DNA of 64,000 bases from a virus. Position numbers and translations under genes: made by a program. The notes under the pieces were generated by a model. The model was not told the DNA's origin and searched no databases. It saw nothing but the letters and a program-made list of their open reading frames with translations. The stretch's first letter is position 1. Every line of letters begins with the position of its first letter. Where the stretch lies: the IMG/VR virus record IMGVR_UViG_3300042893_000309, positions 1 to 64,000 of that record, one strand, 5' to 3'. Positions 7,617 through 21,869 of the stretch are shown piece after piece.

Positions 7617-8579
7617 TCATTTGTATTTTGCCTGAAATGGTTCAGCATACTGCTGAATGCTGTCAATCATACGTTTCATATCGTATAGTTGACAAAATTT
7701 TAATAGTCTAATGCCCACTTGATCAACAGTCTTGGGTACAGCATTAGTTGTAATTGTTTCTTTAATAAAAGACTTAATGTCTTCAGGCTGTGCTTTAAGG
7801 TCGATCAGCTGACGATTACGGTGGTAGTCATCTAGCACCCTGTGTTCACCGCCATTGTGATCAACCCACCTCTGCAACATGAGATTGTTCCACGCGAAGC
7901 CTTTGTTACTGCGGTCCTTAAATGCGTCTTCTAATTTGTTCTTACGAACTTTAGGATAGGCACTAAAGACATTATCGCTACTATCGCCACGCATACACTT
8001 CTCGAACAAAATCCATTCAGGATTAGGAATATCTTTAGGCAAGCCAGTCTTAGTGTCTTTAACCATTTTACCTTTTTTATCAAAGATGCCTTCGATAGTG
8101 GTAAGTGTTTCAGCTACGCCGTTATACTGTTTGACATTGTCGGCAATCAGCTGATGAAAATCGCTGTCTGTTGAAATGATCACGTGGCTATCATCAGGAT
8201 GATCCGCAATGAACCCAGCAATTAAATCGTCTGCTTCTAGCTGACTATGTTGTAATACTGTACAGTTAGTTTTCTCTGTAATGAACTTTTTAAACTCGTC
8301 AAACGCTTCCCAGAACAACTTATCTTCTTCTGCTTCTTTGACAGTCATGGCCGCACGAGTTTCTGCCCTATTAGCCTTGTAGGGCTTGTAATAATCTTTG
8401 CGCCAGCTTCGACCTTCGAGGCAGAAGACCACGTGCTTCCCTTCAAAGTCATTCCATGCTTTTTTGATACTGTTAAATGTGATATGGAATGCCATACCTA
8501 CTTTAATATCGGCATCGCCGCGAATAACGTGTCTAGCACGAAAGAATGTGTTAGCAGTATCAACTAAAATATATGTCAT
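7617..8579 (-). CDS. rnh: 5'-3' flap/RNase H-type exonuclease (T4 Rnh-like)
   Basis: A 320-residue FEN-family nuclease that removes RNA primers and flaps from lagging-strand fragments. Conserved acidic clusters are visible: LVDTANTFFRAR at the N-terminus, EADDLIAGFI in the middle and ISTDSDFHQLI shortly after. The latter two supply metal ligands of the active site. T4 RNase H is 305 residues, so the length fits. It is encoded apart from gp43 and gp45 but on the same strand. Its start overlaps the upstream gene by 4 nt. Confidence 0.85.
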   Translation of the reverse strand: MTYILVDTANTFFRARHVIRGDADIKVGMAFHITFNSIKKAWNDFEGKHVVFCLEGRSWRKDYYKPYKANRAETRAAMTVKEAEEDKLFWEAFDEFKKFITEKTNCTVLQHSQLEADDLIAGFIADHPDDSHVIISTDSDFHQLIADNVKQYNGVAETLTTIEGIFDKKGKMVKDTKTGLPKDIPNPEWILFEKCMRGDSSDNVFSAYPKVRKNKLEDAFKDRSNKGFAWNNLMLQRWVDHNGGEHRVLDDYHRNRQLIDLKAQPEDIKSFIKETITTNAVPKTVDQVGIRLLKFCQLYDMKRMIDSIQQYAEPFQAKYK

Positions 8580-9046
8580 GAAACCTCTGACTTGCCTTTG
8601 GCAATTGGAACTACGTTAATATAACCGGCACCTCTACTAGTGTCCAGACCTTCCTCGCCTAGCATGTTTCTAACAATGTCACGGAACCAACGATCTACAA
8701 TCTCTTCGTCCGGGTCACCATCGAAACCGTATCCAGCTTGTTTCAATTGTAACACAAAAAGTTCATTCCAGTCAAGCTCAAAGAAGCCATTACGGATATT
8801 ATCTTTGTTAACGTGCGTATCCAAAACACTTACCCACGGCTCGCCTTTGGCAGTAGCACGATCTTTTGGTGTCATCTTGGCAACGGCTTCTGCCTTCTGC
8901 GCTGCCTCGGCGGCATCGAGTGCGGTTTTAGCAATCTTGGCAGAATCTTCTGCGGCTTTTAATGACGCTTCTGCTTCCTCTTTAGCCTTGGCCTTTATCT
9001 TATCGATGCCGGTTAAGCGTTCAATTATGTCTGTTATTTTCCCCAT
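8576..9046 (-). CDS. Conserved phage protein with N-terminal coiled coil
   Basis: The Ala/Lys/Glu-rich N-terminal third (about residues 15-60) should form a coiled coil. A conserved-looking domain then follows with ELDWNELFVLQLKQAGY and VDRWFRDIVRNML. I chose the ATG at 9046 because a GGGGGA sequence lies just before it; the ATG at 9058 has no ribosome binding site. Function unknown. It overlaps the end of queE. Confidence 0.65.
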   Translation of the reverse strand: MGKITDIIERLTGIDKIKAKAKEEAEASLKAAEDSAKIAKTALDAAEAAQKAEAVAKMTPKDRATAKGEPWVSVLDTHVNKDNIRNGFFELDWNELFVLQLKQAGYGFDGDPDEEIVDRWFRDIVRNMLGEEGLDTSRGAGYINVVPIAKGKSEVS

Positions 9047-9894
9047 CCGTTCCCCCATAAGTCTACGTGTAGTCTTGGGCTATAGTAATAGCCTCTTTTT
9101 AATGCTTCGTCGGCAATGTGTATACGATTACCATCATACACACTGACAACACCGCCCACAGGCATAACGTACACCGGTCCTACAAAACCTGCGTCACGAT
9201 ATGCCATCACAGCTTGATCAACTTCGTCAAAGTGTTCTAACTGATCCACTACGAATTTCAAATATACAAAACCGTATTGTTGATAGTCTGCTACCACATC
9301 GGGTTTAACAGCATCATTCCATTTTTCTCCGCTTGCGCTTAATTTAGGACTTACGCTAAATGTAATTTCTCTAAACGAGTGATACCAATTATCTAAAAAT
9401 GTTTTAAATTCTTCATGTAACGGCTGGGTACCGTTTGTTTCAAATGTTAGATTTTTTAAATCCTGCATTTTTGTATGATTCAGTAATGCGGGATATAACT
9501 GTTGCCAGCCCAGCAAAGGCTCACCGCCTGTGATAACAAGATGTACATCGTTACCGTTGCTTTGTACCCAAGTATTTTTATTAGGTGTTAATCCCAGTAT
9601 CTTAGATACAATCTCGTCAATGGTATAATAAGGACTTAGTTCTTTGAATGCCGGATGCCAACTAGCATAGCTATCACAACCTGTGTTAACTAAGGGTAAT
9701 TGTTCAAATGTTTTGTAAAGGTGAACACTGTTAGCAATAGGTTCTACCTCGTTAGTTAGTTCGCCTTTAGGCATGCCAAATCCAGCACATTTAAAATTAC
9801 ATCCGAATGTTCTTAAGAACACACTAGGTACACCAATAAATCTACCTTCGCCTTGTGCTGAATAAAATACCTCACTGATTTTTATCTTGTCCAT
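9034..9894 (-). CDS. queE: 7-carboxy-7-deazaguanine synthase-like radical SAM enzyme (QueE)
   Basis: QueE converts 6-carboxy-tetrahydropterin to 7-carboxy-7-deazaguanine (CDG) using SAM and a 4Fe-4S cluster. The 286-residue protein opens with the QueE signature ISEVFYSAQGEGRFIGVPSV and carries ITGGEPLL, the SAM-binding GGEP. The cluster motif is odd. C32 and C36 fit CxxxC, but the third Cys, in the QueE-like context GCDSYASW, is C73 instead of three residues after C36, so about 36 extra residues lie in between. I use the ATG at 9894; an earlier ATG at 9918 lacks a ribosome binding site. FolE, a QueD-like protein and DpdA are encoded in the same window. Confidence 0.85.
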   Translation of the reverse strand: MDKIKISEVFYSAQGEGRFIGVPSVFLRTFGCNFKCAGFGMPKGELTNEVEPIANSVHLYKTFEQLPLVNTGCDSYASWHPAFKELSPYYTIDEIVSKILGLTPNKNTWVQSNGNDVHLVITGGEPLLGWQQLYPALLNHTKMQDLKNLTFETNGTQPLHEEFKTFLDNWYHSFREITFSVSPKLSASGEKWNDAVKPDVVADYQQYGFVYLKFVVDQLEHFDEVDQAVMAYRDAGFVGPVYVMPVGGVVSVYDGNRIHIADEALKRGYYYSPRLHVDLWGNGWGK

Positions 9895-10123
9895 CTTCTT
9901 TCTCTTTCTTAAATTCATTGTACGAAGTAGTAATACTATCCCATACTGCCCACTTAAACAACCAAGACAACAAGGATGTTAAACCTAATACTAGCAATAA
10001 AGCACCAATAATTCCAGGTAGTAGAAATCCTATAATAACAGAAGTCATAGCAATAACATAAACCTTTTGCCAAGGTTTCCATTTACTCCATTGCCATACT
10101 ACAAAATTGTAAACGTCTTTCAA
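9872..10123 (-). CDS. Small membrane protein
   Basis: An 83-residue protein with two hydrophobic segments (about residues 22-40 and 42-60) and a charged tail, EFKKEKEDGQDKNQ. No family recognised. It overlaps queE by 23 nt and the upstream gene by 4 nt. Confidence 0.6.
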   Translation of the reverse strand: MKDVYNFVVWQWSKWKPWQKVYVIAMTSVIIGFLLPGIIGALLLVLGLTSLLSWLFKWAVWDSITTSYNEFKKEKEDGQDKNQ

Positions 10124-10437
10124 TTTTTTAAACTTTCCAATGTTGCGATTTTGGCAATACGTTCTCCAAAATCTTGATCTTGTGTAATTATGTATGTTTG
10201 ATGATCACTGCGATCCTGTCTGCGATCATATCGACTAAATTCTACTATTTTACCACCTATGGCATTATAGACTTTAAAGTGTAGCGTTGGTTCACTATCG
10301 ATAGACTGTTTGCTAACAGCTATACCTATACCTATACTACCTTTAGATATTGTGTTATAATGTACTGGTTGTTCTTCCCGTGCGTTTTCCCAATCATCTC
10401 GCACCCATTTAATTACCATTCTTTTAAACCAGTTCAT
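10120..10437 (-). CDS. Conserved phage protein
   Basis: A 105-residue protein with basic N-terminal MNWFKRMVIKWVRDDW and a central beta-rich part (GIGIAVSKQ, LHFKVYNAIGGKIVEF). Similar proteins occur in T4-like phages, to my recollection without known function. It has ATGA-type overlaps on both sides. Confidence 0.62.
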   Translation of the reverse strand: MNWFKRMVIKWVRDDWENAREEQPVHYNTISKGSIGIGIAVSKQSIDSEPTLHFKVYNAIGGKIVEFSRYDRRQDRSDHQTYIITQDQDFGERIAKIATLESLKN

Positions 10438-10652
10438 TTACATATCTCCAACCAATTATCTAATTTTTTTGCTGCCTCGTCGAACTCTAAAGCCCACACC
10501 GTAGCATATATTGTAGCATCTTCTATACGTAAGTCAAATGGTACTACGCCATTAATTCTAAAATCTTCCGGCACTCTAGTAGTAACTTCGAATTCTTGTA
10601 AATTCTTAGCACGACTAATAAAGTGATCCATTATATCTTTAGCTGTTTCCAT
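10434..10652 (-). CDS. Hypothetical protein
   Basis: A 72-residue acidic protein with mixed alpha/beta composition, beginning METAKDIMDHFISRAKNL. No motif recognised. It directly follows the 10654-11154 gene and has an AGGAG ribosome binding site. Confidence 0.58.
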   Translation of the reverse strand: METAKDIMDHFISRAKNLQEFEVTTRVPEDFRINGVVPFDLRIEDATIYATVWALEFDEAAKKLDNWLEICK

Positions 10653-10653
10653 A

Positions 10654-11154
10654 TTACTCCTTTGGAAATTCTTGACTAAAAGGCCACGATGTATTTGGAT
10701 CGGGTCTCGGCTTTAGCTTAACATTCTCTTCAATAACTTCACCTGTTATTTCATCACAAAGGCTAACTTGATATGGAGCAATAATATGTACAGCACAATC
10801 TTCCTCCTGCCAATCATGTTCTCCATCATAGAGCCAACCTGAGCCACCTTCGTAGTAGAGTTCTTTGAGTTCTTGTTGTTCTAATTCTGAAATGTCATCG
10901 CTGAATTCCCACTCGACACTAATGCTGTCATCGAACTCACAACCCCACCCTACATCGGTCTTAGCGTAGGCAACATCATCTCCTTCCCACGGAAGATTAC
11001 AGTCTAAGTCTTCTTCGATAAAGCCTTGACCCCAACGATATGTTTCGTCAATGTTAAACCAACTAATAGATCCATCTTCGTTTTCACGAAACATCTCTAC
11101 GTGATATACAATGCTTTTCTTTTCTAAAGGTTTTATAAGATAAACGTGGCTCAT
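10654..11154 (-). CDS. Acidic tryptophan-rich phage protein
   Basis: A strongly acidic 166-residue protein with many Trp residues (YRWGQGF, WGCEFDD, GSGWLYDGEHDW). A net negative charge of this size can reflect DNA mimicry, but nothing specific supports that here. No domain recognised. Its ATG overlaps the stop of the 57-residue membrane ORF upstream. Confidence 0.55.
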   Translation of the reverse strand: MSHVYLIKPLEKKSIVYHVEMFRENEDGSISWFNIDETYRWGQGFIEEDLDCNLPWEGDDVAYAKTDVGWGCEFDDSISVEWEFSDDISELEQQELKELYYEGGSGWLYDGEHDWQEEDCAVHIIAPYQVSLCDEITGEVIEENVKLKPRPDPNTSWPFSQEFPKE

Positions 11155-11324
11155 TTAAACATCCTTGCATCTAAGATAATTGCTGCACCCAAGATTAGCC
11201 ATACTATTCCAGGCCAAACACTACCACCGGCGATTGCGGCAATACCAGAACCTAAGTTAACACCACCGACTAGGTAGCCGATCGTTTTACGGTTACGACC
11301 AAACCATTCAAAAAACTTATTCAT
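11151..11324 (-). CDS. 57-residue membrane protein
   Basis: A short gene filling the gap before the 10654-11154 gene. The protein starts MNKFFEWFGRNRKTIGYLVG and has two hydrophobic stretches (about 17-32 and 36-51). It is supported by tight packing: its ATG overlaps the stop of the next upstream small gene (TAATG), and its stop overlaps the following ATG (ATGA). Confidence 0.6.
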   Translation of the reverse strand: MNKFFEWFGRNRKTIGYLVGGVNLGSGIAAIAGGSVWPGIVWLILGAAIILDARMFK

Positions 11325-11437
11325 TATATTTCCTTAATGTAGTATTGTGAAGCAGGGTATGTTTGTTGTAGCCATTCTAACAAGCCTTCTTCGACTGGCA
11401 AGCGAATGCTTTCAAACTTGTTTGTAATATATTTCAT
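11324..11437 (-). CDS. 37-residue hypothetical protein
   Basis: A very short gene beginning MKYITNKFESIRLPVEEGLL. It is framed by an ATGA overlap with the end of folE and a TAATG overlap with the next gene, the pattern used throughout this genome. No function can be inferred. Confidence 0.5.
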   Translation of the reverse strand: MKYITNKFESIRLPVEEGLLEWLQQTYPASQYYIKEI

Positions 11438-12180
11438 CGCGGAGCAAACTCCTGTTGCATCTTAATGTTGTCAAAGAATTCTTTCTTAGTACCCATGTCT
11501 GTATTAAATGCGCCTTTGAGTACTGTAGTCTGTGTCAATGAGCTATGTGCCATAATGCCACGATTCTCACAGCATCCGTGTGTGGCTTGAATATACACTG
11601 CTACGTTTTCTGATTCAGTAGCTTTGCTAATCTCACGGGCAATGTCGTTACAAAGTTCCTCCTGGAGAGTACCGCGTCGAGCACACCACTGAGCGATCCG
11701 TGTGTATTTCGAGAGACCAATAAGTTTATTAGCGGCAATGATACCGATGTAGGCAACCCCAGATACAGGCTGGTGATGATGAGAACACATACTTCGAAGT
11801 TCACTACGTACCACAAGCATACCTTCGTAACGGTCCTCTGAATCATTGGGAAATGCTGTTGCGTCTGGTGCTCTTTCATATCTTCCTGCCATAATTTCAT
11901 TAAAATACATTTTAGCAAGACGTCTTGCGGTGCCTTTACTGTTGGGATCATTCTCGCGATCAATTAGTAACTTATCTAAGATTTGTTCGAATGCCGGTGT
12001 TGCTTCGTCAATTAGTTTTTCTACGTCGCCTTCGTGTAGATAATCACTGATGTTATCGCCAGCCCAAAACCGTTTGTTATCACGTTTCATCTTAAAGCGA
12101 AGATGATCTCCTAGATATGCTTCTTGATAACCGCCATCACCTGCCATTGCGTCAAGTGCTGTTTCTTTTTTATCTGTCAT
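11434..12180 (-). CDS. folE: GTP cyclohydrolase I
   Basis: The 248-residue enzyme opens GTP to dihydroneopterin triphosphate, the first step of folate and of 7-deazaguanine synthesis. Family motifs are clear: CSHHHQP (zinc Cys and catalytic His pair), GLSKYTRIAQWCARR (substrate binding) and the C-terminal CCENRG that replaces HECMTMRG and retains a zinc Cys. With QueE and DpdA in the same window, the pathway use is more likely DNA base modification than folate. It has its own sigma70-type promoter (12224-12253) and an AGGAAA ribosome binding site. Confidence 0.92.
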   Translation of the reverse strand: MTDKKETALDAMAGDGGYQEAYLGDHLRFKMKRDNKRFWAGDNISDYLHEGDVEKLIDEATPAFEQILDKLLIDRENDPNSKGTARRLAKMYFNEIMAGRYERAPDATAFPNDSEDRYEGMLVVRSELRSMCSHHHQPVSGVAYIGIIAANKLIGLSKYTRIAQWCARRGTLQEELCNDIAREISKATESENVAVYIQATHGCCENRGIMAHSSLTQTTVLKGAFNTDMGTKKEFFDNIKMQQEFAPR

Positions 12181-12223
12181 TTTATTTTCCTATGTTAAGG
12201 CAGAGGTCATTGCCATTTGTATT

Positions 12224-12253
12224 AGTATACACTATTATTTAGGTTTTTGTCAA
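12224..12253 (-). promoter_or_regulatory. Sigma70-type promoter for folE
   Basis: In minus-strand sense TTGACA (12248-12253), an 18-bp spacer and TATACT (12224-12229). The -35 lies inside the 3' end of the upstream dehydrogenase-like gene. The leader is about 37 nt. Confidence 0.72.
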
Positions 12254-13036
12254 CCTTAGTAATGTATTTTTCTTAACTGCTTCTTTCAAAACATTTAAAT
12301 TTATATCTAGTGTTTCTGCGTACTTTAATAAGGCACTAGTATCTTTGGGAAAACACATACCGCCGAATCCGTTGTACCCATCTGGACCCGGTACTTGGGT
12401 ATGGCTGATGTTAATGCGATTGTCTTTGGCAACCATGCCTCGAATCCTATTCCAGTCATGTCCTTGCGCTTTTGCCAATTGACACATCTCGTTCATAAAA
12501 ACTACCTTGGTTGCTAGAAACGAATTAATAATATATTTTACCATGGCAGCTTCGCCAATAGTACAGAACACTGAATCTACATTTGGTTTGGTATATTTTA
12601 TAACACGTTCTGCTTCTCTTTGATAGGCCAGTGTGCTACCGCCAATAATAGCCCAGTTTTCTTTGGCATAATCCTGAGCAGCATTAGCGGCAGTTAAAAA
12701 TTCAGGCACATGTACTAGATTGGAATATTGGGTTTGTAAATATTCGTATACATTGGGAGTAGCTGTCACTTTTGAAATGATGACCCCTTTAAAGTTTTTT
12801 AAATTAGTCAACGTAGATACTAGGGGCAGAGTATTACAACTTCCATCATCATTCATGGGACTAGGTACACAAACAAACACAGCTTCGGCATCTGTTAAAT
12901 CAGCGTATGTGCTGTTAAAACCTTTACTAGGATCTGTATCGATAATTACCAGGTTGGCAAATCCTTCATAGTTGGAGGCAATAGCACTACCAACAAAGCC
13001 GCATCCCACGATACCAATTTTTGGCAGATCAAACAT
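12239..13036 (-). CDS. UDP-glucose/GDP-mannose dehydrogenase-like protein, short form
   Basis: Full-length enzymes of this family oxidise nucleotide sugars to uronic acids. Here the Rossmann NAD-binding domain (IGIVGCGFVGSAIA) and the central helical domain with the active-site Cys motif GFGGMCFPKD are present. The protein ends soon afterwards at 266 residues, against about 400 for typical enzymes, so the C-terminal nucleotide-sugar-binding domain is missing. It may use another substrate or work with a partner. The start at 13036 is chosen for its GGGAGAA ribosome binding site; 26 upstream codons are open but lack one. Confidence 0.78.
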   Translation of the reverse strand: MFDLPKIGIVGCGFVGSAIASNYEGFANLVIIDTDPSKGFNSTYADLTDAEAVFVCVPSPMNDDGSCNTLPLVSTLTNLKNFKGVIISKVTATPNVYEYLQTQYSNLVHVPEFLTAANAAQDYAKENWAIIGGSTLAYQREAERVIKYTKPNVDSVFCTIGEAAMVKYIINSFLATKVVFMNEMCQLAKAQGHDWNRIRGMVAKDNRINISHTQVPGPDGYNGFGGMCFPKDTSALLKYAETLDINLNVLKEAVKKNTLLRLTKT

Positions 13037-13310
13037 TATTTTCTTTCTCCCATTCACCTCTACCATGATCCCAGTGTCGATTATCGTAAAAATTAAAATG
13101 TACACAATAACCAAACAGGCCTGCTTCTAAGTCTAGTCCCGCATGACTTTGACGTACAGTCCAATTGAACATGAGAGACATTAATGTGAAATCTCGAGTA
13201 ACTTCTAATTCAATATGTTTATTTTTAAATGGAGTATTGTATGCACGGCACCACAAATTCTTAAAGGTGTTACTCCAAGGGTTGCGGATGTTAAAGTTAA
13301 ATGAAATCAT
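13029..13310 (-). CDS. Hypothetical phage protein
   Basis: A 93-residue, aromatic-rich protein (FNFNIRNPWSNTFKNLW, FGYCVHFNFYDNRHWDHGRG) of T4-like conserved type, function unknown. It overlaps the downstream dehydrogenase-like gene by 8 nt and the upstream gene by 4 nt. Confidence 0.6.
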   Translation of the reverse strand: MISFNFNIRNPWSNTFKNLWCRAYNTPFKNKHIELEVTRDFTLMSLMFNWTVRQSHAGLDLEAGLFGYCVHFNFYDNRHWDHGRGEWEKENNV

Positions 13311-13489
13311 ATGTAATCTACTGATTTTTTAGTTCGCAGTTTTCTACACTCGGCTTTAACTTCGGCTGGATAGTCGGGATGAAATTCTGACAAACTACAA
13401 TCGTAGATTCTGCCTCCATCATCCGGCACTGTTACTAGTATTAAGAATGCCAATACTAGAAATATTAGTGCTACTACTGCTTGTTTCAT
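13307..13489 (-). CDS. Small single-pass membrane or exported protein
   Basis: A 60-residue protein with an N-terminal hydrophobic segment (residues 4-20, VVALIFLVLAFLILVTV) and a short polar domain with two Cys (YDCSLSEF, ECRKLR). The polar part is probably periplasmic. Function unknown. Confidence 0.58.
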   Translation of the reverse strand: MKQAVVALIFLVLAFLILVTVPDDGGRIYDCSLSEFHPDYPAEVKAECRKLRTKKSVDYI

Positions 13490-13806
13490 GAATTGATATC
13501 TCCTTGATATCGTGGAATCATATGTATGTGGGGATATTTACCGTCTTGCCCGGCAATATCTCCCACACTTTGAACTAGGTTAAATCCCTGCCACTTTTCA
13601 GATTCGATTCCGTCGTAGCCCCACTTATAGGCTGCTCTGTAAGTTTCGAAGAGACAGTCCATTGATTTTTGGGTAGGCACAAAACACAAATACCCTTCAC
13701 AGGGTGCTGACGGGTCTTTAAAAATCCAAAACTTTGTTGTTCTGTATTCGATTTCTTTCCAAGGAGCGCTGCCATCATTTAGTGCCTTTTCGATATCTGT
13801 TGTCAT
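13486..13806 (-). CDS. HIT-like protein with degenerate triad
   Basis: A 106-residue protein whose C-terminal half fits the HIT (histidine triad) nucleotide hydrolase pattern: GFNL, GDIAGQ, then HIHMIPRYQGD. The usual HxHxH is here YxHxH: the first His is replaced but the middle, catalytic His is kept. HIT enzymes cleave nucleoside phosphoramidates or dinucleoside polyphosphates. Activity is uncertain. Confidence 0.6.
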   Translation of the reverse strand: MTTDIEKALNDGSAPWKEIEYRTTKFWIFKDPSAPCEGYLCFVPTQKSMDCLFETYRAAYKWGYDGIESEKWQGFNLVQSVGDIAGQDGKYPHIHMIPRYQGDINS

Positions 13807-13812
13807 TACAAT

Positions 13813-14016
13813 TTACGATACTAGACTTTGTGCTAATATTTTAAGTTCGTCATCGGTCATAAAAAACTGATAAGTTGAGGTCATGTCAACTTCTCCGTTT
13901 ATATTTTTACATTCTTGTATAAACTCAAGAGCATTTAGTGTAGCTGGGTTTACACATTTCCAGCTTTTAACCCTCAGTCTAAATCCTGCTGTATCTTTAA
14001 TTATGCTTTCTTTCAT
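13813..14016 (-). CDS. Hypothetical protein
   Basis: A 67-residue protein with two Cys (KCVNPAT, ECKN) and no recognisable motif. Its start overlaps the upstream acidic protein by 4 nt. Confidence 0.55.
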   Translation of the reverse strand: MKESIIKDTAGFRLRVKSWKCVNPATLNALEFIQECKNINGEVDMTSTYQFFMTDDELKILAQSLVS

Positions 14017-14252
14017 TGTAGTGTCCTTTTGTCTTCTCCGGCTAGACTGTTAATAAGTTTTTCAGCCCATTCGGGTTCTTCTTCCAGTAATTCTTCTAAG
14101 TCTACTTGACGACTTTGTTCGAACAGCTCACCTGAATGTGCCATTTTGGTAATTTCAGCAATCATTTCTTCAAGCTCTTCTTGCGAGCCTTCAAAATCGT
14201 CAAAAGCGCCTGGCGCAAATTCGATAGTGAGTGGTTTCTTTTCATCAGTCAT
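14013..14252 (-). CDS. Small acidic protein
   Basis: A 79-residue, very acidic protein (FEGSQEELEEMIAEI, VDLEELLEEEPEWAEKL), probably helical. No function recognised. Confidence 0.55.
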   Translation of the reverse strand: MTDEKKPLTIEFAPGAFDDFEGSQEELEEMIAEITKMAHSGELFEQSRQVDLEELLEEEPEWAEKLINSLAGEDKRTLQ

Positions 14253-14730
14253 AGTCGCCTTTTATACGTTCAAAAGTTTTATATTTTTCCAAAGCATTGA
14301 TATATTCATCAAACAGTTTCTTTAGCTTAGGATGCTTCTTCTCTAGTATAACATCTCTTTCAGGAATACACAAGACTTTTTCGATTGTGTTTAACCGTTC
14401 TTCTAAATCTCTATCATTTATAACAACTTTGCCTTTGACAGTTAAAGTTGCATCTTTTTCCAAAACAATTTCGTCTTTGCCAGATGGCACAGTCATAATA
14501 GGTTTGCCATTGCTATTATTAAATTGAGTGCTTGAATTAGTCCAACTAGTACCATTCAATCCGCTTGTTAAAAACTGACCACTGCTGCCACCACCTAGAC
14601 TTGTATTATTAGTAGTATAAACTGTTCCAACTGTTAGTGGTGTTGTAGCAAGTGGTATTGTACCGTAGCCAACACTCACTGTACTGCCAACAAACCCATT
14701 ACTGACGACGTTGTTCAAGGTATTGCTCAT
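14245..14730 (-). CDS. Fibre-like N-terminus with conserved phage C-terminal domain
   Basis: The N-terminal 90 residues are Gly/Ser/Thr/Asn rich and include GQFLTSGLNGTSW, the same GQ-x-L-NG-x-W module found in the tail-fibre genes at 46922, 57699 and 61427. The C-terminal part (NDRDLEERLNTIEKVL) is helical and resembles a short conserved domain of T4-like marine phages. It could be a small virion or adaptor protein, although it lies within a metabolic block. Confidence 0.55.
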   Translation of the reverse strand: MSNTLNNVVSNGFVGSTVSVGYGTIPLATTPLTVGTVYTTNNTSLGGGSSGQFLTSGLNGTSWTNSSTQFNNSNGKPIMTVPSGKDEIVLEKDATLTVKGKVVINDRDLEERLNTIEKVLCIPERDVILEKKHPKLKKLFDEYINALEKYKTFERIKGDYD

Positions 14731-15178
14731 TGTGTATCCATTTGTTCTTTACAAGAAAGCCCCATTCTCTTTTTTGTGGTCCTGGCATAAACAATGTCCA
14801 CGCCGTTATATTAGGATCAAGCTCAATGCGATGATATGATGTGGCTTTACAAATACGGAAATGTCCAGGCCCCCGCCACTTTGCTATCTCAGTTATCTTT
14901 CGACCGTCTGAATTAAATTGTGGAATCCATTCCCAATAGCCGCCTGACAGTATTAAAGTAAAATAAGGCCATGGATGATCATGTACGTCATCGGGATCCG
15001 ATTTAAGAAACTTGTGTAGAAACACATTAAAGGGAAAACGGTTTCTGTCTTTAAGGAAGATATAATAACGTTCGAGATATGGCTCTTCACTAACTCTGTC
15101 CATAATAATTCTTTTTCTGTCATGCTGTTCTAACCAAGCAAAAAACTTATTCTTTATCTTTTGGATTATCATAATCAT
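14699..15178 (-). CDS. Cupin-like phage protein
   Basis: A 159-residue protein with a His-rich pattern HDHPWPYFTLILSGG and a later SYHRIEL, which looks like the two metal-binding halves of a cupin (RmlC-like) barrel. Similar proteins occur in T4-like cyanophages. The role may be sugar or small-molecule modification, given the surrounding glycosyltransferase and oxidoreductases. Several in-frame ATGs make the start uncertain; 15178 has a GGAT sequence upstream. Confidence 0.55.
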   Translation of the reverse strand: MIMIIQKIKNKFFAWLEQHDRKRIIMDRVSEEPYLERYYIFLKDRNRFPFNVFLHKFLKSDPDDVHDHPWPYFTLILSGGYWEWIPQFNSDGRKITEIAKWRGPGHFRICKATSYHRIELDPNITAWTLFMPGPQKREWGFLVKNKWIHNEQYLEQRRQ

Positions 15179-15536
15179 CCTTTACAAGTGTATACACTGT
15201 TCGAAAATTTCTTAATGCGATTTCTAGTCCAGGATACTGTTTGCACATATTTTGAACACGTTGCCAGTCCGGAAACAAGTCTACAAATTCTACAGAGCTT
15301 CCCCAACTAATTTGATAATCGGTGTTAAGTGTAATAGTATCGCTAGATAACGTTGTATATGTAACCCCACTTCCACTGCCAGTTATTGATATAGTGTTCA
15401 TATTTGTATCAATATAATAACCAGACGATGCGTGTAAATCAGAAGGTAACTCTATAGTAAACGTGTCTCCCAATGCTATAAAAGACTCAGTTGGCAAGTC
15501 GCTTAATAAGTTCTGTTGCTGAGAAGAATTGCTCAT
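15147..15536 (-). CDS. Conserved phage protein, beta-rich
   Basis: A 129-residue protein with a Ser/Thr-rich beta N-terminal part (GDTFTIELPSDL, SISWGS-like strands) and a helical C-terminus (DWQRVQNMCKQYPGLEIAL). Function unknown. It overlaps both neighbours by 30-50 nt, long for this genome. Confidence 0.58.
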   Translation of the reverse strand: MSNSSQQQNLLSDLPTESFIALGDTFTIELPSDLHASSGYYIDTNMNTISITGSGSGVTYTTLSSDTITLNTDYQISWGSSVEFVDLFPDWQRVQNMCKQYPGLEIALRNFRTVYTLVKDDYDNPKDKE

Positions 15537-16587
15537 GTAATACCTCTGTTTGTTTTTTTAATTGTGGCAAAAACTGTTCGTAATGATTCATATACTGTAT
15601 GATTTTATTACACACTGAAGGTCTTGCGAAGTCGTATGCTTCAAAACTTTCAGTCCACTCACTAGGATACTTGAATGTGTCAAATGCCATCTCGCTGTAG
15701 CTTAATCTATCCGGCACCATAGGAATGGCACCTACCACAGCACCTTCGTACCAGCTAATGCCCAGCGTCTCTTGAAGATTTGCACTAAACACTATTTTAG
15801 CACGACCTAACAGTTTGTGATATTCATGTTTGTCTAGTTGCTGATCTTGACAAACGACAAATTCGTATTGAGGTAGGTGCGTAGCCAAGTCACGAAAAAT
15901 GTCAACTTGCTTCTCCGGAGCAATGCGATGAGGAAACAAAATTAGATCACGCTTGGGCGTAGTCCAGTAGTTGTCCAAAGTATCTTGCATATACTCCATG
16001 GGCCAGCCTGTTCGCACAATCTTTCCATCGGTAATTAAATCAGACTTATCCTCTTCGTGCCACGGATTTTCTGTTTTATAACCATCTTCTAATAAGTTAT
16101 CTACAAACATATCAATATGGAACTTGGTAGCAAAATAGTTGTGATCAAATGCGTGGAAAAAACTCTTCTCAGCATGTCTTACCCATTTCCTCTTACCAAC
16201 AAGACGTCCTAAAAAATCTTGTGGATCATATGATCCAGCATGCCATAAACCATGTGTAACTACCGGAATGCCCAGCAGTTCACTCATGTATTTGAGATTG
16301 ATGACGCCAGGGTGCCAAGCATCAGTAAATATAAAATGATCACCAGGGCTAACTGATCCGGAGCAAAATAAGCGACCCATCTGCTCCACTTGACTAGCCT
16401 TGTATATATTAGTGCCGCCAAAGTTGAGAAATGCGCCAGGAGTGGTAGCACTAGGAATGTCCGTAGGACCTGATATAATGTTGACATTGTGTCCTGCCTT
16501 TCGTAAGAGAGCAGGTACATGGCGCTTCCATTGCCCCGTGTACCTTGTCTCTACTGCTTCTAGATCAACGAGAAAAACTTTGCTCAT
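15487..16587 (-). CDS. Glycosyltransferase (GT-B-like)
   Basis: A 366-residue protein that I start at the ATG at 16587 (MSKVFLVDLEAVETRYTGQW). The preceding 71 open codons look like a reading-frame shadow of the upstream gene. The C-terminal half follows the GT-B pattern: PHRIAPEKQ after the linker and an LQETLGISWYEGAVVGAIPMVPD motif that binds the nucleotide sugar. The target (phage DNA base, virion or host surface) is unknown. The start overlaps the end of the upstream gene by 23 nt. Confidence 0.75.
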   Translation of the reverse strand: MSKVFLVDLEAVETRYTGQWKRHVPALLRKAGHNVNIISGPTDIPSATTPGAFLNFGGTNIYKASQVEQMGRLFCSGSVSPGDHFIFTDAWHPGVINLKYMSELLGIPVVTHGLWHAGSYDPQDFLGRLVGKRKWVRHAEKSFFHAFDHNYFATKFHIDMFVDNLLEDGYKTENPWHEEDKSDLITDGKIVRTGWPMEYMQDTLDNYWTTPKRDLILFPHRIAPEKQVDIFRDLATHLPQYEFVVCQDQQLDKHEYHKLLGRAKIVFSANLQETLGISWYEGAVVGAIPMVPDRLSYSEMAFDTFKYPSEWTESFEAYDFARPSVCNKIIQYMNHYEQFLPQLKKQTEVLHEQFFSATELIKRLAN

Positions 16588-16852
16588 TGCGTGGACCGCG
16601 ATAGTTGTTATTTCCACCGCTTCGATTAAATTCGCCACGCGGCTTGCGAGTACCATCCCATGGCTTCTTTGGACGAGTACTGTAATAGAAATTGTTCCAA
16701 ATTTGACTATTACGATTGTAAAGATTTGCCTCGTTAAAGTCACACATCTCGAAACGACAAAAATCGTGAAACTTTTCCAAGTCGTCGAAAATTTTAACAA
16801 TATCAGGACGGTTTTCTAAGTAGTTAACGTCTTTGTAATTATTCTTAGCCAT
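16565..16852 (-). CDS. Conserved T4-like phage protein
   Basis: A 95-residue protein beginning MAKNNYKDVNYLENRPDIVK, started at 16852 because of an AAGGAAAG ribosome binding site 6 nt upstream. The N-terminal PDIVKIFDDLEKFHDFCR segment is of a type common in T4-like cyanophages. The C-terminus is Arg/Gly/Asn rich, which could bind nucleic acid. Function unknown. Confidence 0.65.
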   Translation of the reverse strand: MAKNNYKDVNYLENRPDIVKIFDDLEKFHDFCRFEMCDFNEANLYNRNSQIWNNFYYSTRPKKPWDGTRKPRGEFNRSGGNNNYRGPRNEQSFSR

Positions 16853-16865
16853 TATAGCTTTCCTT

Positions 16866-17261
16866 TTAATACTTAATAAATGAACCATTTTCTCCGTCTT
16901 CGGAGACTTCAATCCAAACCTCACGGTCGGGATACCTTTGTGAGACTTGAGCGTGTAAATCATCGCTCATCATTTCGCAACTTTTGTAATCTAGCGACAA
17001 AACACCTTGTGTGCTAGAATACAGTTTTTCAAGCCATCGCTTGAATTGTATAAATTCCACATCTCTGTCATTGTGGGTGACACTAAGCCATACCCTAAAA
17101 TGAAAAATATGGCGATGAGGATTAGCCAAAAACGAAACATCATATTCATCTCCTGTTGCTAAGTTTGGATCTGTTGCGGCTGCTGGATATTTGTGAATAC
17201 CTTCTTTACGAAAGGTTACCCAAATCATTTTGTTAGGTCTAATATCTTGTTTAATAATCAT
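16866..17261 (-). CDS. QueD/6-pyruvoyl-tetrahydropterin synthase-like protein
   Basis: The 131-residue protein matches the order of elements in QueD: FRKEGIHKYPA (first zinc His), NPHRHIFHFRVWLSV in place of HGH, VEFIQFKRWLEKLY in place of the IDF helix, SCEMMSDDL in place of TSE, and a last strand VWIEVSEDGENG. QueD makes 6-carboxy-tetrahydropterin, the substrate of QueE. The catalytic Cys that precedes HGH in canonical QueD is not seen, so activity is uncertain. The match is by eye. The start overlaps the upstream gene by 4 nt; an alternative start is at 17228. Confidence 0.6.
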   Translation of the reverse strand: MIIKQDIRPNKMIWVTFRKEGIHKYPAAATDPNLATGDEYDVSFLANPHRHIFHFRVWLSVTHNDRDVEFIQFKRWLEKLYSSTQGVLSLDYKSCEMMSDDLHAQVSQRYPDREVWIEVSEDGENGSFIKY

Positions 17262-17482
17262 TCTTTTCTGAACCTTGGAGTTAAAATCTCTGCATCAACT
17301 TTATTTAAAAATTGACAATTTTCTAATCTTACTAACAGTTCATCTAACGAACCAGTATGATCTTCAACTATAACTCTAATTGGTTTAGTAGTGTCTGTTC
17401 TGTCTTCTAGAATGTATGTTAGTTTTCCATTTGCAGCTAAAATTTGCTCGCTGAAATATTCTTGTAAATTAATTAAATTCAT
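17258..17482 (-). CDS. Hypothetical protein next to the QueD-like gene
   Basis: A 74-residue protein (MNLINLQEYFSEQILAANGK). I use the ATG at 17482, which forms an ATGA overlap with the upstream stop and has AGGA upstream. No motif recognised. Confidence 0.6.
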   Translation of the reverse strand: MNLINLQEYFSEQILAANGKLTYILEDRTDTTKPIRVIVEDHTGSLDELLVRLENCQFLNKVDAEILTPRFRKE

Positions 17483-17997
17483 GTTGGTGTATCCTGTGTA
17501 TATTGATCCCAATAGGTAAATTTGTCTTTACTCATTAGGCTTTGTAGGTGATGAGTCCATACGCCAGGGTTAGTAGCACCCCAAGTACGATCATCTAGTT
17601 TGAGTGTTGCGTTATAGTTAAGTTGACTAATGTAAGGCAACTTTACACTAATCATAGGAATAAACCTATCTTGTTCGCAGTAACCGCTTTCGATTACGCC
17701 TTCAATATGTTCTACACCGAAGTCTAAAGCGACCCAGTAATTTTCTTTAAGACATCCGAGTATAACTGTATCCCATACCGCATATTCTTCTTGTGTCATT
17801 GCTTTTGGATTGAAGCTCTGACTAGTACCAAAATAAATTTGCTTAATGTCGATGTCTCTGTTTGCTTGTTGTAGTATTTCCTCTAAAGGAGGAGTGCCAA
17901 CAACAAACAAAGTTTTCATACCATAAGCAATAGTATGCTCGACCTCATACCCTGTAAAGTAAACAACATTCTGTCGTTCTTCAGTGTTTAGTCCCAT
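17479..17997 (-). CDS. Conserved phage protein
   Basis: A 172-residue protein with a conserved-looking N-terminal VVYFTGYEVEHTIAYGMKTL followed by a TLFVVGTPP strand-turn. I recall similar proteins in T4-like marine phages but no function. Its position beside the QueD-like gene may mean a shared pathway; that is inference. It overlaps the downstream end of the MDR gene by 10 nt. Confidence 0.62.
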   Translation of the reverse strand: MGLNTEERQNVVYFTGYEVEHTIAYGMKTLFVVGTPPLEEILQQANRDIDIKQIYFGTSQSFNPKAMTQEEYAVWDTVILGCLKENYWVALDFGVEHIEGVIESGYCEQDRFIPMISVKLPYISQLNYNATLKLDDRTWGATNPGVWTHHLQSLMSKDKFTYWDQYTQDTPT

Positions 17998-18869
17998 TTA
18001 ATATAACCTCTGCTGTAACCGCTTGGACGATCCATACCATCCGCAAACGCTTGCTGCCATTCAGTGTTACGATTGTAACACTTTGTCCAGAAACTATCAA
18101 CCTCAAGATAGCCGTTTTCAATCATGAACACTGCTTCTTTCATACATTGGAAAAATCCATCAGTGCGTGGACTTGGCCGAACTGTAGTACAGGCTTTCCA
18201 AAGTTGAGCTTGAGCTTCCTCACGACTAACTGCTTTGCCAACACCGTCAATAATAAGGGCATTGTTATTTAGGTTGATGTCTATACCTAACGCATATTTG
18301 CCACTCAAGTCGATAACTATATCATAACTTTCGCTAGTACCAATCAATAGTTTATCACCCCACAGTTCCGTATTGCTAGACCCTAGTACATTGATGTCTT
18401 GTTTGCGTAATATCAATCTGTGATAAGCAACCCACGCAAGGAATCCACTACCAATAATCAATATCTTGCCATTTCTTTTATTAATTTCGCCTGCGGCTTG
18501 TTCCACTACATTGATACCGCAAGCAACCGGTTCTAGTATATAGCGAGGATGTGCTTCGGGTACTAGGACATACTCTTTAGATCTTACATTATAAATATCT
18601 GCGTATGCGGGTTCGCCTCGGGTGGCAACAAAGTCTCCAAAGTTGACGTCTTTAATATTAGCACCAATTCCAATAACTTGTCCAAGTCCTTCGTGCCCTT
18701 GCATGTGTAAAGGTAACGGCCCAAAGTCTCCTACCATCATGTCGATATCACTACGACATACACCAGTCATAACACTTCGAACACAAATTTCATCTTCAGT
18801 TAACGGATCTACATGAAATTCGATTTCAGTAAAACTACCATTGCCTGTTGTTTGTAAAATTCTATTCAT
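17988..18869 (-). CDS. Zinc-type alcohol dehydrogenase-like (MDR) oxidoreductase
   Basis: A 293-residue medium-chain dehydrogenase/reductase. GVCRSDIDMM (zinc Cys) and GHEGLGQVIGIG match the catalytic domain, and ILIIGSGFLAWVA is the Rossmann nucleotide-binding loop. It is shorter than typical (about 350 residues). The ATG at 18869 overlaps the stop of the upstream Gfo/Idh-type gene (ATGA), so the two oxidoreductases are made together and may act in sequence on one sugar or polyol. Confidence 0.78.
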   Translation of the reverse strand: MNRILQTTGNGSFTEIEFHVDPLTEDEICVRSVMTGVCRSDIDMMVGDFGPLPLHMQGHEGLGQVIGIGANIKDVNFGDFVATRGEPAYADIYNVRSKEYVLVPEAHPRYILEPVACGINVVEQAAGEINKRNGKILIIGSGFLAWVAYHRLILRKQDINVLGSSNTELWGDKLLIGTSESYDIVIDLSGKYALGIDINLNNNALIIDGVGKAVSREEAQAQLWKACTTVRPSPRTDGFFQCMKEAVFMIENGYLEVDSFWTKCYNRNTEWQQAFADGMDRPSGYSRGYIKWD

Positions 18870-19741
18870 AGTTTTTCTATTTGTTCGTGAATCCACATAT
18901 CTTGCTGATATTGATTGTTCCAGAACTCATTATTATTTAGGTTTTTAACAGCAGTCTCTACCATAGTTTTGTAGGCAGATTCTGGACACAATCCTAGCTC
19001 ATGTCTTATGGCACTATTTCTCATGCTAAACGCAATACTACTGTCGTCATGATCTAGATTAGTTTTCCAGTTGGCACTTAGTATCCACGTAATGTTCTTA
19101 TTCTCGAATTCTAAATGACAAAAGTCGTCTACGTCATACGTGCCGGTATGATTGACTACACCGTAATCTGTACTGTCAATATCTTCTAGTTTATAGTTTT
19201 GAAGTGATTGTGCTTTAAGTTTAACACCATGTTTATAGTCTGTTAACGCACAATAGTAACTAAGCATATGAGGAATTAAGTCTCTGCTAACTCCGCCAAA
19301 TGCTAATTCTTTTGTAGTAAACCAACTACCGGGTTGTGGAATACGATTAGCGTTATTCCAACGAACATATACTCGTTCGCTTTGATCAGCTTGACTTTTG
19401 AATAGTTTAATCTCGTCTCTGTACTGATTATTTTTAACCATCATGAAACGTGTGTCGGGAAAGTCTTCTACTAGACAGAACCAACACTTGGCATCTTGTA
19501 CACCTGGCTTTTCAATTAGAACAATTTTACACTTGTTAGCAATAGTTCTTGCTACCAGTTCATGTGTAAAATTTGGTGTACAAATAACGACAATATCATA
19601 TTCGCCTGTGACAATATCAGCAGTTTTAAATGTTGCGTTCTTTTCCGGATTAGAATCCACAGTATCGATTTCATAGCCGAGGCCGGTGAATACGGAATGA
19701 TATAGTTGTCCTATACCCATTCCTACAATTAAGGCCTTCAT
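18866..19741 (-). CDS. Gfo/Idh/MocA-family oxidoreductase
   Basis: A 291-residue NAD(P)-dependent sugar oxidoreductase. The N-terminal ALIVGMGIGQLYH is the dinucleotide-binding loop, followed by VVICTPNFTHELVA and IEKPG, the family's EKP motif. Substrate unknown. It sits between a small BPSL0761-like gene and the MDR gene, all coupled by 4-nt overlaps. Confidence 0.8.
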   Translation of the reverse strand: MKALIVGMGIGQLYHSVFTGLGYEIDTVDSNPEKNATFKTADIVTGEYDIVVICTPNFTHELVARTIANKCKIVLIEKPGVQDAKCWFCLVEDFPDTRFMMVKNNQYRDEIKLFKSQADQSERVYVRWNNANRIPQPGSWFTTKELAFGGVSRDLIPHMLSYYCALTDYKHGVKLKAQSLQNYKLEDIDSTDYGVVNHTGTYDVDDFCHLEFENKNITWILSANWKTNLDHDDSSIAFSMRNSAIRHELGLCPESAYKTMVETAVKNLNNNEFWNNQYQQDMWIHEQIEKL

Positions 19742-19989
19742 TCTTTTTTACTTTCTTCGTATTGTTTAAACAATCTAGTAACCGGTTCCATTCGTTCTTG
19801 GAACACATCCGGCGCACCTATGGCCGCACGTTCTAAATCCCATTCACTAGGGAAATGTCGCAAGATACTATATGCTTCTCCGCGAACTTTTTTAGGAACT
19901 CTAGGATAGTCTTTGGTATTGTGGGCTATATCCTGTAAGAATCTCTTGGCCCACATTACGGAACGATATCTTTCATCTGGTAATGTCAT
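19738..19989 (-). CDS. BPSL0761-like small protein
   Basis: An 83-residue protein starting MTLPDERYRSVMWAKRFLQD with a later VRGEAYSILRHFPSEWDLE. This is the pattern of the BPSL0761 family of small proteins known mainly from betaproteobacteria and their mobile elements. Function unknown. It overlaps the end of dpdA by 17 nt. Confidence 0.6.
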   Translation of the reverse strand: MTLPDERYRSVMWAKRFLQDIAHNTKDYPRVPKKVRGEAYSILRHFPSEWDLERAAIGAPDVFQERMEPVTRLFKQYEESKKE

Positions 19990-21682
19990 GATGTATTTCG
20001 TTTTCTAGTTGATCTAGTTTGTCAATTTGGTCTTCGGCAAATTCGCCATCTTCACTTGATTGTACACTCTCTTCATCTTCTTCGTCAAATAGATTGGCAA
20101 AGTGTGTGCTAGCATTAACTGTTTTTTTACCAATAGCGCCCCGTGTTCCTGGAATAGCTTGCCAAAATTTATCAAAGCCGTCAATGATAGCATCAGCTGT
20201 TGCTCTATCAGGCGCACTAAAAATAGCATCCACTACGTCTTTAAAGTATACACGTTCGAATCTTTCATCTACTAGCATGGCAGGACATAGACCAGCATCA
20301 TACTGTCGATTAGCTTCTTGTACACTATTCAAATGTAGCCACACATTATGACCCATCATAATTGCGTATGTGAAACTATCCCACGATGTTTTACCTTCTT
20401 TACCTATCTTATTTAGGTCGCCTGGTCCGTAGATACAAATATCTTTAACTTGTACGCCATCCATCAAGGGGCTGGTAGTAAACGATTTAAAGTGTCCATC
20501 TTGTACAACAACATCCTGAAACAATCTAGTATCTTTACTATACTTCTTATTGTCTAAACTAGGCAACATGCGATATAACCATTTTTGTCTATCTACAATT
20601 TCAGTTTGTACATAAATCTGTCCGTTGGCAGTGGCAAGGAACGGACTGGCACAGTCAAAGCTGATTGTAAACTTGGGATTGTGGTACTTACGAACAGCAC
20701 GTTGAATGTCTGTCAGCAGTAATGCCCACTCTAATTTACTTGTACCCAAGAAGTGCATCCAGTCTTGATGACCTTCTTCTAGTAATCCATCAAACTTTAG
20801 AGCTACTAGTCTGCGTAGAACTAAATCTACGTCACACATATTCTGTCCACCCATAGCCCAGCCATTAAACGGTCTTTCATATTTTGTTGGATCGCAGAAG
20901 TCTTTCATTTGTTGATACCAATCTTCTGCCTGTGCGTGATTCTCACCTTGTAGAACGTTTAAGAACTTACAAGCACCTGTACGATGTTTGATAAAGTATT
21001 CATTGTTGTATTTGGTAGCGGCAACAGCTTGTTCATAACTAGCAATGCCACTGTTCTTGGCACCCACTGGACTGCGTCCAACCCATGCTGGAATATCAAG
21101 TACCATGCCGTAATCCATTAAGGCATCCATCCAAGCTAATACTTGTTCACGTTTCTTTTGTGCCGCATCTAGTTTTGCTTGAAAAAGTTTAACATGGTCA
21201 ATTTTAGTATACTTGACATTTCCGTTCTTGTCTGTTTTAGGATCACCAGTTGGGTGTAATTGTGGAACAAGTTCAACACCCTTGGCAACTGCTTCTGCCA
21301 TGCGTTGTGCTACTTCCTCACCTACTGGATCGTTCCATTCACCTTCCCACACGCCTTTACCAATTTGGAAACCTCCAGAGTCGCCTAATACCCAACTAGT
21401 TGAGCGATCTCTATTGCGAAACATATCTTCGCTTGGATCTGGCTTAGTCAAGTCTAAGTTAGCGTGTCCAGCTGAATACAAACAATGGTCAAAGTAAAAT
21501 GTCGCATTGGGATTCAAATAGTTCATGGCTTCAATGCCTAGTGGTCCAAAGCTGGCAGGTATGCGAGCAGGGTCTACATAGTTATTGTAGCGTTGCTTTC
21601 CGATATACGTACTATAAAAGCCAGATGTTGCCGGCAAAAAGTAGGCATAATCATTTTGATGTGCGGTTAAATTTTTATTCAT
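19973..21682 (-). CDS. dpdA: DpdA-like DNA 7-deazaguanine transglycosylase (TGT superfamily)
   Basis: The 569-residue protein keeps the active-site motifs of tRNA-guanine transglycosylase in order: LGDSGGFQ (D101), VLQGEN (245-246), GWAMGGQ (near 275), HFLGTSK (near 311) and SFDCASPF (D343, matching the nucleophile in FDCVLPTR). The usual CxCxxC zinc site is not evident. Phage DpdA proteins of this kind exchange guanine in DNA for a preQ0-type 7-deazaguanine and so protect against host restriction. FolE, QueE and a QueD-like protein, needed to make the base, are encoded nearby; QueC is not seen. Confidence 0.85.
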   Translation of the reverse strand: MNKNLTAHQNDYAYFLPATSGFYSTYIGKQRYNNYVDPARIPASFGPLGIEAMNYLNPNATFYFDHCLYSAGHANLDLTKPDPSEDMFRNRDRSTSWVLGDSGGFQIGKGVWEGEWNDPVGEEVAQRMAEAVAKGVELVPQLHPTGDPKTDKNGNVKYTKIDHVKLFQAKLDAAQKKREQVLAWMDALMDYGMVLDIPAWVGRSPVGAKNSGIASYEQAVAATKYNNEYFIKHRTGACKFLNVLQGENHAQAEDWYQQMKDFCDPTKYERPFNGWAMGGQNMCDVDLVLRRLVALKFDGLLEEGHQDWMHFLGTSKLEWALLLTDIQRAVRKYHNPKFTISFDCASPFLATANGQIYVQTEIVDRQKWLYRMLPSLDNKKYSKDTRLFQDVVVQDGHFKSFTTSPLMDGVQVKDICIYGPGDLNKIGKEGKTSWDSFTYAIMMGHNVWLHLNSVQEANRQYDAGLCPAMLVDERFERVYFKDVVDAIFSAPDRATADAIIDGFDKFWQAIPGTRGAIGKKTVNASTHFANLFDEEDEESVQSSEDGEFAEDQIDKLDQLENEIHHDITR

Positions 21683-21869
21683 CTGTTAAGTAATCGTTAT
21701 GCTCTTCGATCCTCCAAATATGGATGTTTTGAGGTACGTTGCCTTTCTTCTCAACGTACCCAATCCTAACATCCACATTTAATGTTCCAAGATCGGACAT
21801 AAGCTCATTAACTTCTTTTACAAGGTCCTTGAGCTTAATGACTTTTGACTTTACATTGTCGTCTTTCAT
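21675..21869 (-). CDS. Small hypothetical protein
   Basis: A 64-residue protein with a helical N-terminus (VIKLKDLVKEVNELMSDLG) and a beta C-terminus. No match recognised. It is coupled by a 4-nt overlap to the sliding-clamp gene and by 8 nt to dpdA. Confidence 0.55.
   Translation of the reverse strand: MKDDNVKSKVIKLKDLVKEVNELMSDLGTLNVDVRIGYVEKKGNVPQNIHIWRIEEHNDYLTDE

Follow-up and report, generated by a model that had tools for sequence, protein, structure and literature searches.

In the established route to 7-deazaguanine-modified DNA, FolE, QueD and QueE lead to 7-carboxy-7-deazaguanine (CDG), QueC converts CDG to preQ0, and DpdA performs the insertion (PMC6884629, PMC13329287). The DpdA2 systems of phage nt-1 and its relatives yield mainly dPreQ0, with some dG+ and dADG, and Bipper, a phage lacking QueC, was noted in 2019 as possibly using CDG (PMC6884629). 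This study concerns a locus at positions 9034-21682 of the virus record IMGVR_UViG_3300042893_000309, a fragment of 65,293 bases, of which bases 1-64000 form the window. The locus encodes FolE, QueE, a predicted DpdA-type DNA guanine transglycosylase, a predicted paralogue of QueD and a putative GT4-type glycosyltransferase. We give about an even chance to its being a module that modifies DNA with a 7-deazaguanine independently of QueC and includes a glycosylation step.

As in the window, FolE, a PTPS-like protein and a DNA transglycosylase related to tRNA-guanine transglycosylase (TGT) are found in one stretch in the nt-1 system, and the profile of the window DpdA aligned with five DpdA2-type proteins (probability 92, E 5.7e-7). 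Unlike the window, nt-1 has QueC beside dpdA; its record lacks the QueD paralogue, a scan of 12.8 kb detected no glycosyltransferase, and its DpdA2 lies apart in the tree. A CDG decarboxylase, DpdL, was reportedly described in 7-deazaguanine phages by Cui et al. in 2023; such systems resemble the present locus in having no QueC, in making CDG with FolE, QueD and QueE, and in converting CDG with a further enzyme. To our knowledge, no coupled glycosyltransferase was described in that work. The glucosyltransferases of T4, which act on 5-hydroxymethylcytosine in DNA, are a parallel in that a phage glycosyltransferase works on an already modified DNA base; here, in contrast, the base would be a 7-deazaguanine installed by base exchange, and the enzyme is GT4-like with an EX7E motif. 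Within a single 41-kb stretch, phage Paride carries counterparts of the window DpdA (33% identity), glycosyltransferase (41%), QueD paralogue (52%), QueE (30%) and exonuclease (49%); unlike in the window, FolE was undetected there.

The DpdA-type protein (19973-21682, minus strand, 569 amino acids (aa)) belongs to a divergent large-phage clade and was assigned by predicted fold and profile match. As a single sequence it had no Pfam match at E ≤ 1 and no NCBIfam match at E ≤ 0.1, and it gave a PDB match at chance level only (E 0.96) and a weak match to an unnamed phrog (E 0.0039). Viral homologues were aligned for DpdA, the glycosyltransferase, the QueD paralogue and a conserved 172-aa protein (g172), with 42/58, 43/68, 38/64 and 42/62 distinct sequences, respectively; PDB profile searches with these alignments returned nothing useful. 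An AlphaFold model of DpdA built from 43 aligned sequences reached a mean predicted local distance difference test (pLDDT) value of 85.6. The top 12 PDB matches of this model in Foldseek were all TGTs (E 2.9e-7 to 1.0e-4), at modest TM-scores of 0.28-0.35 by query length, and the CBASS protein Cap10 came next. Residues D101, S102, G103, G104, Q106 and D343, which form a DSGG(F)Q motif and a second aspartate, were invariant over 46 DpdA rows and are presumably catalytic, as in TGT. The CxCxxC motif of TGT was absent from the window DpdA. In a 42-row tree, four TGTs and five DpdA2 proteins each formed a 100/100 group, and the window protein sat with viral-contig relatives, outside the tRNA TGT group; clustering with that group was the outcome that the preliminary description of this locus had named as counter-evidence, and it was not observed. 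The deep joins of this tree were weak and long-branched. The presence of a DpdA-type transglycosylase, as first proposed, was thus upheld by the TGT matches of the model, the lack of CxCxxC and the DpdA2 profile match. These data suggest that the window DpdA is a DNA guanine transglycosylase with a TGT-like predicted fold, for which base insertion into DNA is predicted.

The pathway genes might instead boost the supply of queuosine precursor for host tRNA, with no modification of DNA, as has been proposed for phages that carry pathway genes and lack DpdA (PMC6884629). This is very improbable for the present locus, which has a DpdA that is not placed in the TGT group and has no CxCxxC motif; the genes next to it encode DNA polymerase and clamp, and the window yielded no tRNA gene. 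We consider it very likely that a DNA 7-deazaguanine pathway is present.

The sole QueD-like protein found in the interval (16866-17261, minus strand) belongs to phrog_17812, a family without an assigned function that is present in 27 phage records. Its AlphaFold model (pLDDT 88.6) matched PTPS/QueD structures in 15 of 15 PDB matches at E ≤ 0.001, the best being PTPS and Escherichia coli QueD, and was aligned with E. coli QueD 4ntk at TM-scores of 0.65/0.70 (E 8.6e-5). Three zinc-type histidines and Glu121 were invariant in 47/47 rows; we take these to be the zinc ligands and the substrate-binding residue. The catalytic cysteine was present in none of these rows, its position being occupied by leucine in all 47, and no cysteine was found in the eight residues ahead of the HxH motif; canonical phage PTPS proteins have the catalytic cysteine in nine of nine cases. 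No match to PF01242, the family of canonical PTPS/QueD, was found in the 65,293-base record or among window open reading frames of at least 50 aa. The same search located a canonical PTPS elsewhere in all nine named phage records, and several phages carrying phrog_17812 have a separate annotated QueD. Paride (OR805295.1, 40504-43233) has, besides the paralogue, a pair of canonical PTPS matches separated by about 2 kb.

A protein without the catalytic cysteine should not perform QueD chemistry, and the earlier proposal that this gene supplies QueD had to be given up: the missing cysteine and the lack of a PF01242 match rule it out as a canonical QueD. From its modelled fold and conserved residues, it is predicted to be a QueD paralogue with another chemistry. 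It is a candidate CDG-processing enzyme, which may resemble DpdL.

The assignments of FolE and QueE in the preliminary description were both confirmed. FolE, GTP cyclohydrolase I, is encoded at 11434-12180 on the minus strand (PF01227, E 8.8e-40), and a phage-type QueE, 7-carboxy-7-deazaguanine synthase, at 9034-9918 on the same strand (QueE-like phrog_2076, E 1.5e-52), with cluster cysteines C40, C44 and C81. In the window QueE, 36 residues separate the second and third of these cysteines, where two are usual; the QueE of Vibrio phage 2.275.O and those of some other phages appear similar in the alignment.

Neither QueC nor QueF was matched in the 65,293-base record. The record being a fragment, this does not directly demonstrate their absence from the whole virus, so that the earlier statement that QueC is lacking stands for the record and not for the virus. 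QueC was also sought outside the window, in the full record and in relatives. Among nine named records, PF06508 scored over the cut-off only in phage 2.275.O (E 1.7e-51). None of the four named complete relatives with the module (Paride, Phosso, ACP17 and X1; BUCT-ZZ01 was not searched) had a QueC over the cut-off, and the weak match in X1 (E 6.6e-4) was by eye a NadE-like PP-loop protein. The search for QueC and canonical PTPS was extended to 24 viral contigs (68-353 kb) in which both paralogue and glycosyltransferase are present. Matches to QueC at E ≤ 0.01 were obtained in four of these (G001, G002, G008 and G016), with one over the cut-off; this match spanned positions 4-68 of a protein of the PP-loop type that lacks the zinc motif of QueC. 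By eye, the G016 match was NadE-like and that of G001 another PP-loop protein; the G008 match was weak (11.7 bits). No convincing case emerged, the G002 protein (discussed below) being still a possible one. Canonical PTPS was found in 15 of the 24 contigs, and incompleteness of the contigs alone therefore does not explain the missing QueC. Of 14 named phages, 10 carry the paralogue, and the three that have QueC (2.275.O by PF06508; nt-1 and pf16 by annotation, in both beside dpdA) are all without it.

These results bear on the possibility that the base is preQ0 or a derivative, with QueC coming from a viral gene beyond the 65-kb fragment or from the host. The fragmentary record leaves room for such a gene. 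Among five bacterial genomes bearing a glycosyltransferase-DpdA pair, QueC was full-length in three, partial over the cut-off in a fourth, and without a match over the cut-off in the fifth. Furthermore, the dpdA of phage 9g alone gave dPreQ0 in E. coli plasmid DNA (PMC6884629). The preQ0 alternative is nevertheless quite unlikely given the lack of QueC in the four complete relatives, the single unconvincing match among 24 large contigs, and the absence of the paralogue wherever QueC was found, in phages and in one viral locus. QueC appears to have been replaced and not merely to be missing, a QueC-free DNA 7-deazaguanine pathway is supported, and we are rather confident that the base is not preQ0. 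The preliminary description had suggested that CDG or a derivative may be used in the absence of QueC; a CDG-derived base is favoured here as well, with the likely end point being the product of the paralogue, probably glycosylated, and not CDG itself.

The glycosyltransferase gene (15487-16587, minus strand, start ATG read at 16587) and that of g172 (17479-17997, minus strand), both conserved alongside the pathway genes, had been overlooked earlier. PF00534 (Glycos_transf_1) matched the X1 homologue over the cut-off (E 8e-12) and those of Paride (0.00097), ACP17 (0.00025) and Phosso (0.089) below it. Residues E270 and E278, spaced as EX7E, and R218 and K223 were invariant across 48 rows, and are presumably the EX7E and donor-binding Arg/Lys residues of GT4 enzymes. 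The X1 homologue and the EX7E residues argue for a GT4-type glycosyltransferase. Kinship with the tRNA-queuosine mannosyltransferase family is not claimed, PF12038 being unmatched in five of five proteins. A tblastn search with the window protein matched 19 of 50,697 phage records. Coverage was at least 80% in 15 of these (11 PA5oct-like phages, Phosso, two ACP17 records and X1), and all 15 carry the paralogue. A profile search found a glycosyltransferase right after the paralogue in BUCT-ZZ01, which tblastn had missed. In Xanthomonas phage PhiXhv-15 (L105, 11800-12903), a distant glycosyltransferase relative lies beside genes for a fructose-6-phosphate aminotransferase and a deacetylase, with a leucyl/phenylalanyl-tRNA-protein transferase upstream; this is possibly another sugar-based modification. 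PhiXhv-15 was not retained as a carrier of the module, its distant relative lying in another sugar cluster and the QueD paralogue being absent.

Linkage was assessed in viral contigs by three scans, with the glycosyltransferase, the paralogue and DpdA as queries, keeping the best 80 of at least about 600 loci in each; many contigs were short, and the loci are related and not independent (the pairs L063/L064 and L094/L095 share their layout). The glycosyltransferase scan yielded at least 596 confirmed viral stretches, and the best 80, many of them truncated, contained the QueD paralogue in 75, the 95-aa protein g95 in 79, g172 in 72, DpdA in 64, FolE in 64, QueE in 53 and the cysteine-dioxygenase-type protein in 69. 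The paralogue scan added 79 new loci, with the glycosyltransferase in 73; the six without it end no more than 0.9 kb from the start of the paralogue reading frame. The DpdA scan, which we regard as the fairest test of linkage, gave 78 new loci, 57 with the glycosyltransferase. A total of 32 loci were dropped (12 with the glycosyltransferase, and 20 without it that end within 2.5 kb of DpdA), leaving 46 in which the sequence continues for 4,490 bases or more past DpdA; this threshold was chosen once the largest DpdA-glycosyltransferase distance had been seen. Both paralogue and glycosyltransferase were present in 45 of these 46 loci. The remaining locus, L213, lacks both and, alone among the 46, has a QueC-like gene (E 2e-10 against a profile of three phage QueC sequences). 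In the DpdA-query loci, paralogue and glycosyltransferase are thus present or absent together, in a distribution complementary to that of QueC. As the loci are related, they do not represent 46 independent events; more weight is given to the matching pattern in bacteria and in named phages from other lineages. The linkage also spans two DpdA types, the DpdA of ACP17, X1 and BUCT-ZZ01 being of the nt-1 DpdA2 kind.

Seventeen loci in the prokaryote collection encode the glycosyltransferase. Four of these (L189-L192) resemble jumbo-phage pieces binned with metagenome-assembled genomes (MAGs): three show the polymerase-clamp-DpdA layout, and L189 is a 4.6-kb piece with FolE. In each of the remaining 13 loci (five Magnetospirillum, Azospirillum, Shimia, two Sulfitobacter, Pelagibacterium, and Verrucomicrobia, Deltaproteobacteria and Crocinitomicaceae MAGs), about 1.1 kb or less separates DpdA from the glycosyltransferase. 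The paralogue was found in the stretch for nine of the 13 (about 8 kb away in L198) and PTPS in six. A prophage or phage-fragment origin is possible for some of them: L202 carries a RecT-like gene, and the length of L194 and L195 is about 3 kb. The linkage of deazaguanine genes with a glycosyltransferase in many phages and some bacteria suggests a new sugar-decorated DNA base.

A YhhQ/Vut_1-like transporter gene lies directly before the glycosyltransferase in L193, L198, L201, L204 and L205. The L205 protein matched PF02592 just below the cut-off (E 2.2e-5), and the other four are its homologues; YhhQ is described as a preQ0 transporter (PMC6884629). The arrangement in these five loci might represent a glycosyl-deazaguanine island of bacteria. 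In L193, L198, L201 and L205 (not L204), a 538-592-aa protein adjoins, with about 25-27% likeness between Azospirillum and the roseobacters, and the neighbourhood of L205 encodes a response regulator, a MASE1 kinase, and STAND-type and AAA ATPases. In the Magnetospirillum loci (L196, L197, L199, L200 and L203), the glycosyltransferase, QueD paralogue, DpdA and a canonical PTPS are encoded consecutively, and in L196 CoiA-nuclease-like and HEPN proteins adjoin this row. PADLOC matched none of 10 proteins from the bacterial loci.

The following sequence of steps is proposed. CDG would be produced by FolE and QueE together with a canonical QueD that comes either from another part of the viral genome or from the host. 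The QueD paralogue would convert CDG to the base that is used, the likeliest reaction being decarboxylation to 7-deazaguanine, the activity attributed to DpdL. DpdA would then exchange guanine in the phage DNA for the product of the paralogue, and the GT4-type glycosyltransferase would add a sugar to the modified base, most likely once this is in the DNA. Less probably, the free base may be glycosylated ahead of its insertion, or a glycosyl ester of CDG may be formed. The sugar may shield the DNA from restriction. Gene identities, predicted folds, invariant residues, linkage and the distribution opposite to QueC are results of the analysis; the reaction of the paralogue, the donor and acceptor of the glycosyltransferase, and protection are proposals. 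That the glycosyltransferase belongs to the pathway is likely; that it acts on the base is an evenly balanced question.

Several observations weigh against the proposed glycosylated module. The record is a fragment, and a 270-kb relative (L102/G002) encodes a 206-aa QueC-like PP-loop protein with SGGLDS and CGRCDTC (CGxCxxC) motifs, scoring below the cut-off. The sequence similarity between the paralogue and QueD is weak (hhalign probability 16.6), and the case for kinship rests on predicted fold and residues. The window glycosyltransferase by itself matches PF00534 only below the cut-off (E 0.088), and four partial, distant tblastn matches (Erwinia phage Ep032 and three Xanthomonas PhiXhv phages) fall outside the paralogue records. 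Five alphaproteobacterial loci carry the glycosyltransferase and DpdA without an adjoining paralogue. Chemically, decarboxylated CDG lacks a hydroxyl, amine or acid group at C7, and addition of a sugar would then need C-glycosylation or another acceptor atom. Finally, 11 of the 27 paralogue records show no glycosyltransferase by tblastn, and for RHph_I1_18, Ahp1, Bakedbeans, phiST and D479 among these 11, profile scans of 20-30 kb found no glycosyltransferase and neither type of DpdA. The paralogue can thus be present in the absence of the other components. In these five, it would then work with another inserting enzyme, with one encoded elsewhere, or with none.

The records with the paralogue and no tblastn match to the glycosyltransferase favour another reading, in which the base is unglycosylated dCDG or dDG and the glycosyltransferase is a mere neighbour that decorates, for example, a virion protein or the cell surface; clusters of glycosyltransferases in jumbo cyanophages are thought to target surface polysaccharide (PMC7824862). 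We hold this to be rather unlikely, as the glycosyltransferase tracks DpdA over different phages, in 13 of 13 bacterial or MAG loci and across two DpdA types, and in the DpdA-query loci co-occurs with the paralogue and opposite to QueC.

The pathway genes of the window lie on the minus strand, interspersed with small open reading frames, between the DNA polymerase (22633-25338, phrog_262) and clamp (21866-22597, a homologue being annotated in Phosso) on one side and the exonuclease homologue (7617-8579) on the other. Protein g95 is encoded at 16565-16852 (minus strand), between the QueD paralogue and the glycosyltransferase. No phrog match was found for any of 44 members of g172 and no useful PDB match was obtained; a homologue is present in ACP17 (E 7e-11), and g172 is a possible further member of the pathway. 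The phrog_4786 'cysteine dioxygenase' protein (14699-15178, minus strand, E 9.2e-37) is a frequent neighbour. Optional members, all on the minus strand, are a UDP-glucose/GDP-mannose dehydrogenase-like protein (12239-13114; PF00984 E 1.3e-20, PF03721 E 5.3e-9; 35 of the best 80 glycosyltransferase loci), an alcohol dehydrogenase-like protein (17988-18896; PF08240 E 1e-8; 26 loci) and a Gfo/Idh/MocA-type oxidoreductase (18866-19741; PF01408 E 8e-6; 25 loci). The first of these has matches to the N-terminal and central domains and none to the C-terminal domain. These three were set aside as makers of the sugar donor, being only optional across the loci.

A partial search of the literature found no report coupling DpdA to a glycosyltransferase or describing a glycosylated deazaguanine. 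The system for deazaguanine synthesis and incorporation of PA5oct has been published, with no mention of the glycosyltransferase or the paralogue in the available part of that paper (PMC7824862). The term 'queuosine' does not occur in the Paride and MIJ3 papers, nor 'deazaguanine' in the former, and the glycosyltransferase named in the available part of PMC12028318 is an unrelated island gene. The novelty of the coupling is therefore provisional. The named isolates with the module are Paride, PA5oct, MIJ3, ACP17, X1, Phosso and BUCT-ZZ01.

More generally, and at somewhat less than an even chance, many large uncultured phages, PA5oct-like phages and some alphaproteobacteria may carry a glycosylated 7-deazaguanine in their DNA. 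It would be made by a DpdA and GT4 module whose substrate comes either from a CDG route that dispenses with QueC and uses a repurposed QueD, or from uptake by a YhhQ-like importer. The linkage nominates the repurposed QueD fold and g172 as pathway candidates, together with the bacterial loci that have the glycosyltransferase-DpdA pair. If this proposal is true, it would account for the fate of CDG in QueC-less 7-deazaguanine phages, and would unite base exchange by DpdA and glycosylation, two separate strategies for hiding DNA, in one pathway. The modified base would represent a DNA hypermodification of a new chemical class, and the bacterial loci might be islands for self-marking or defence.

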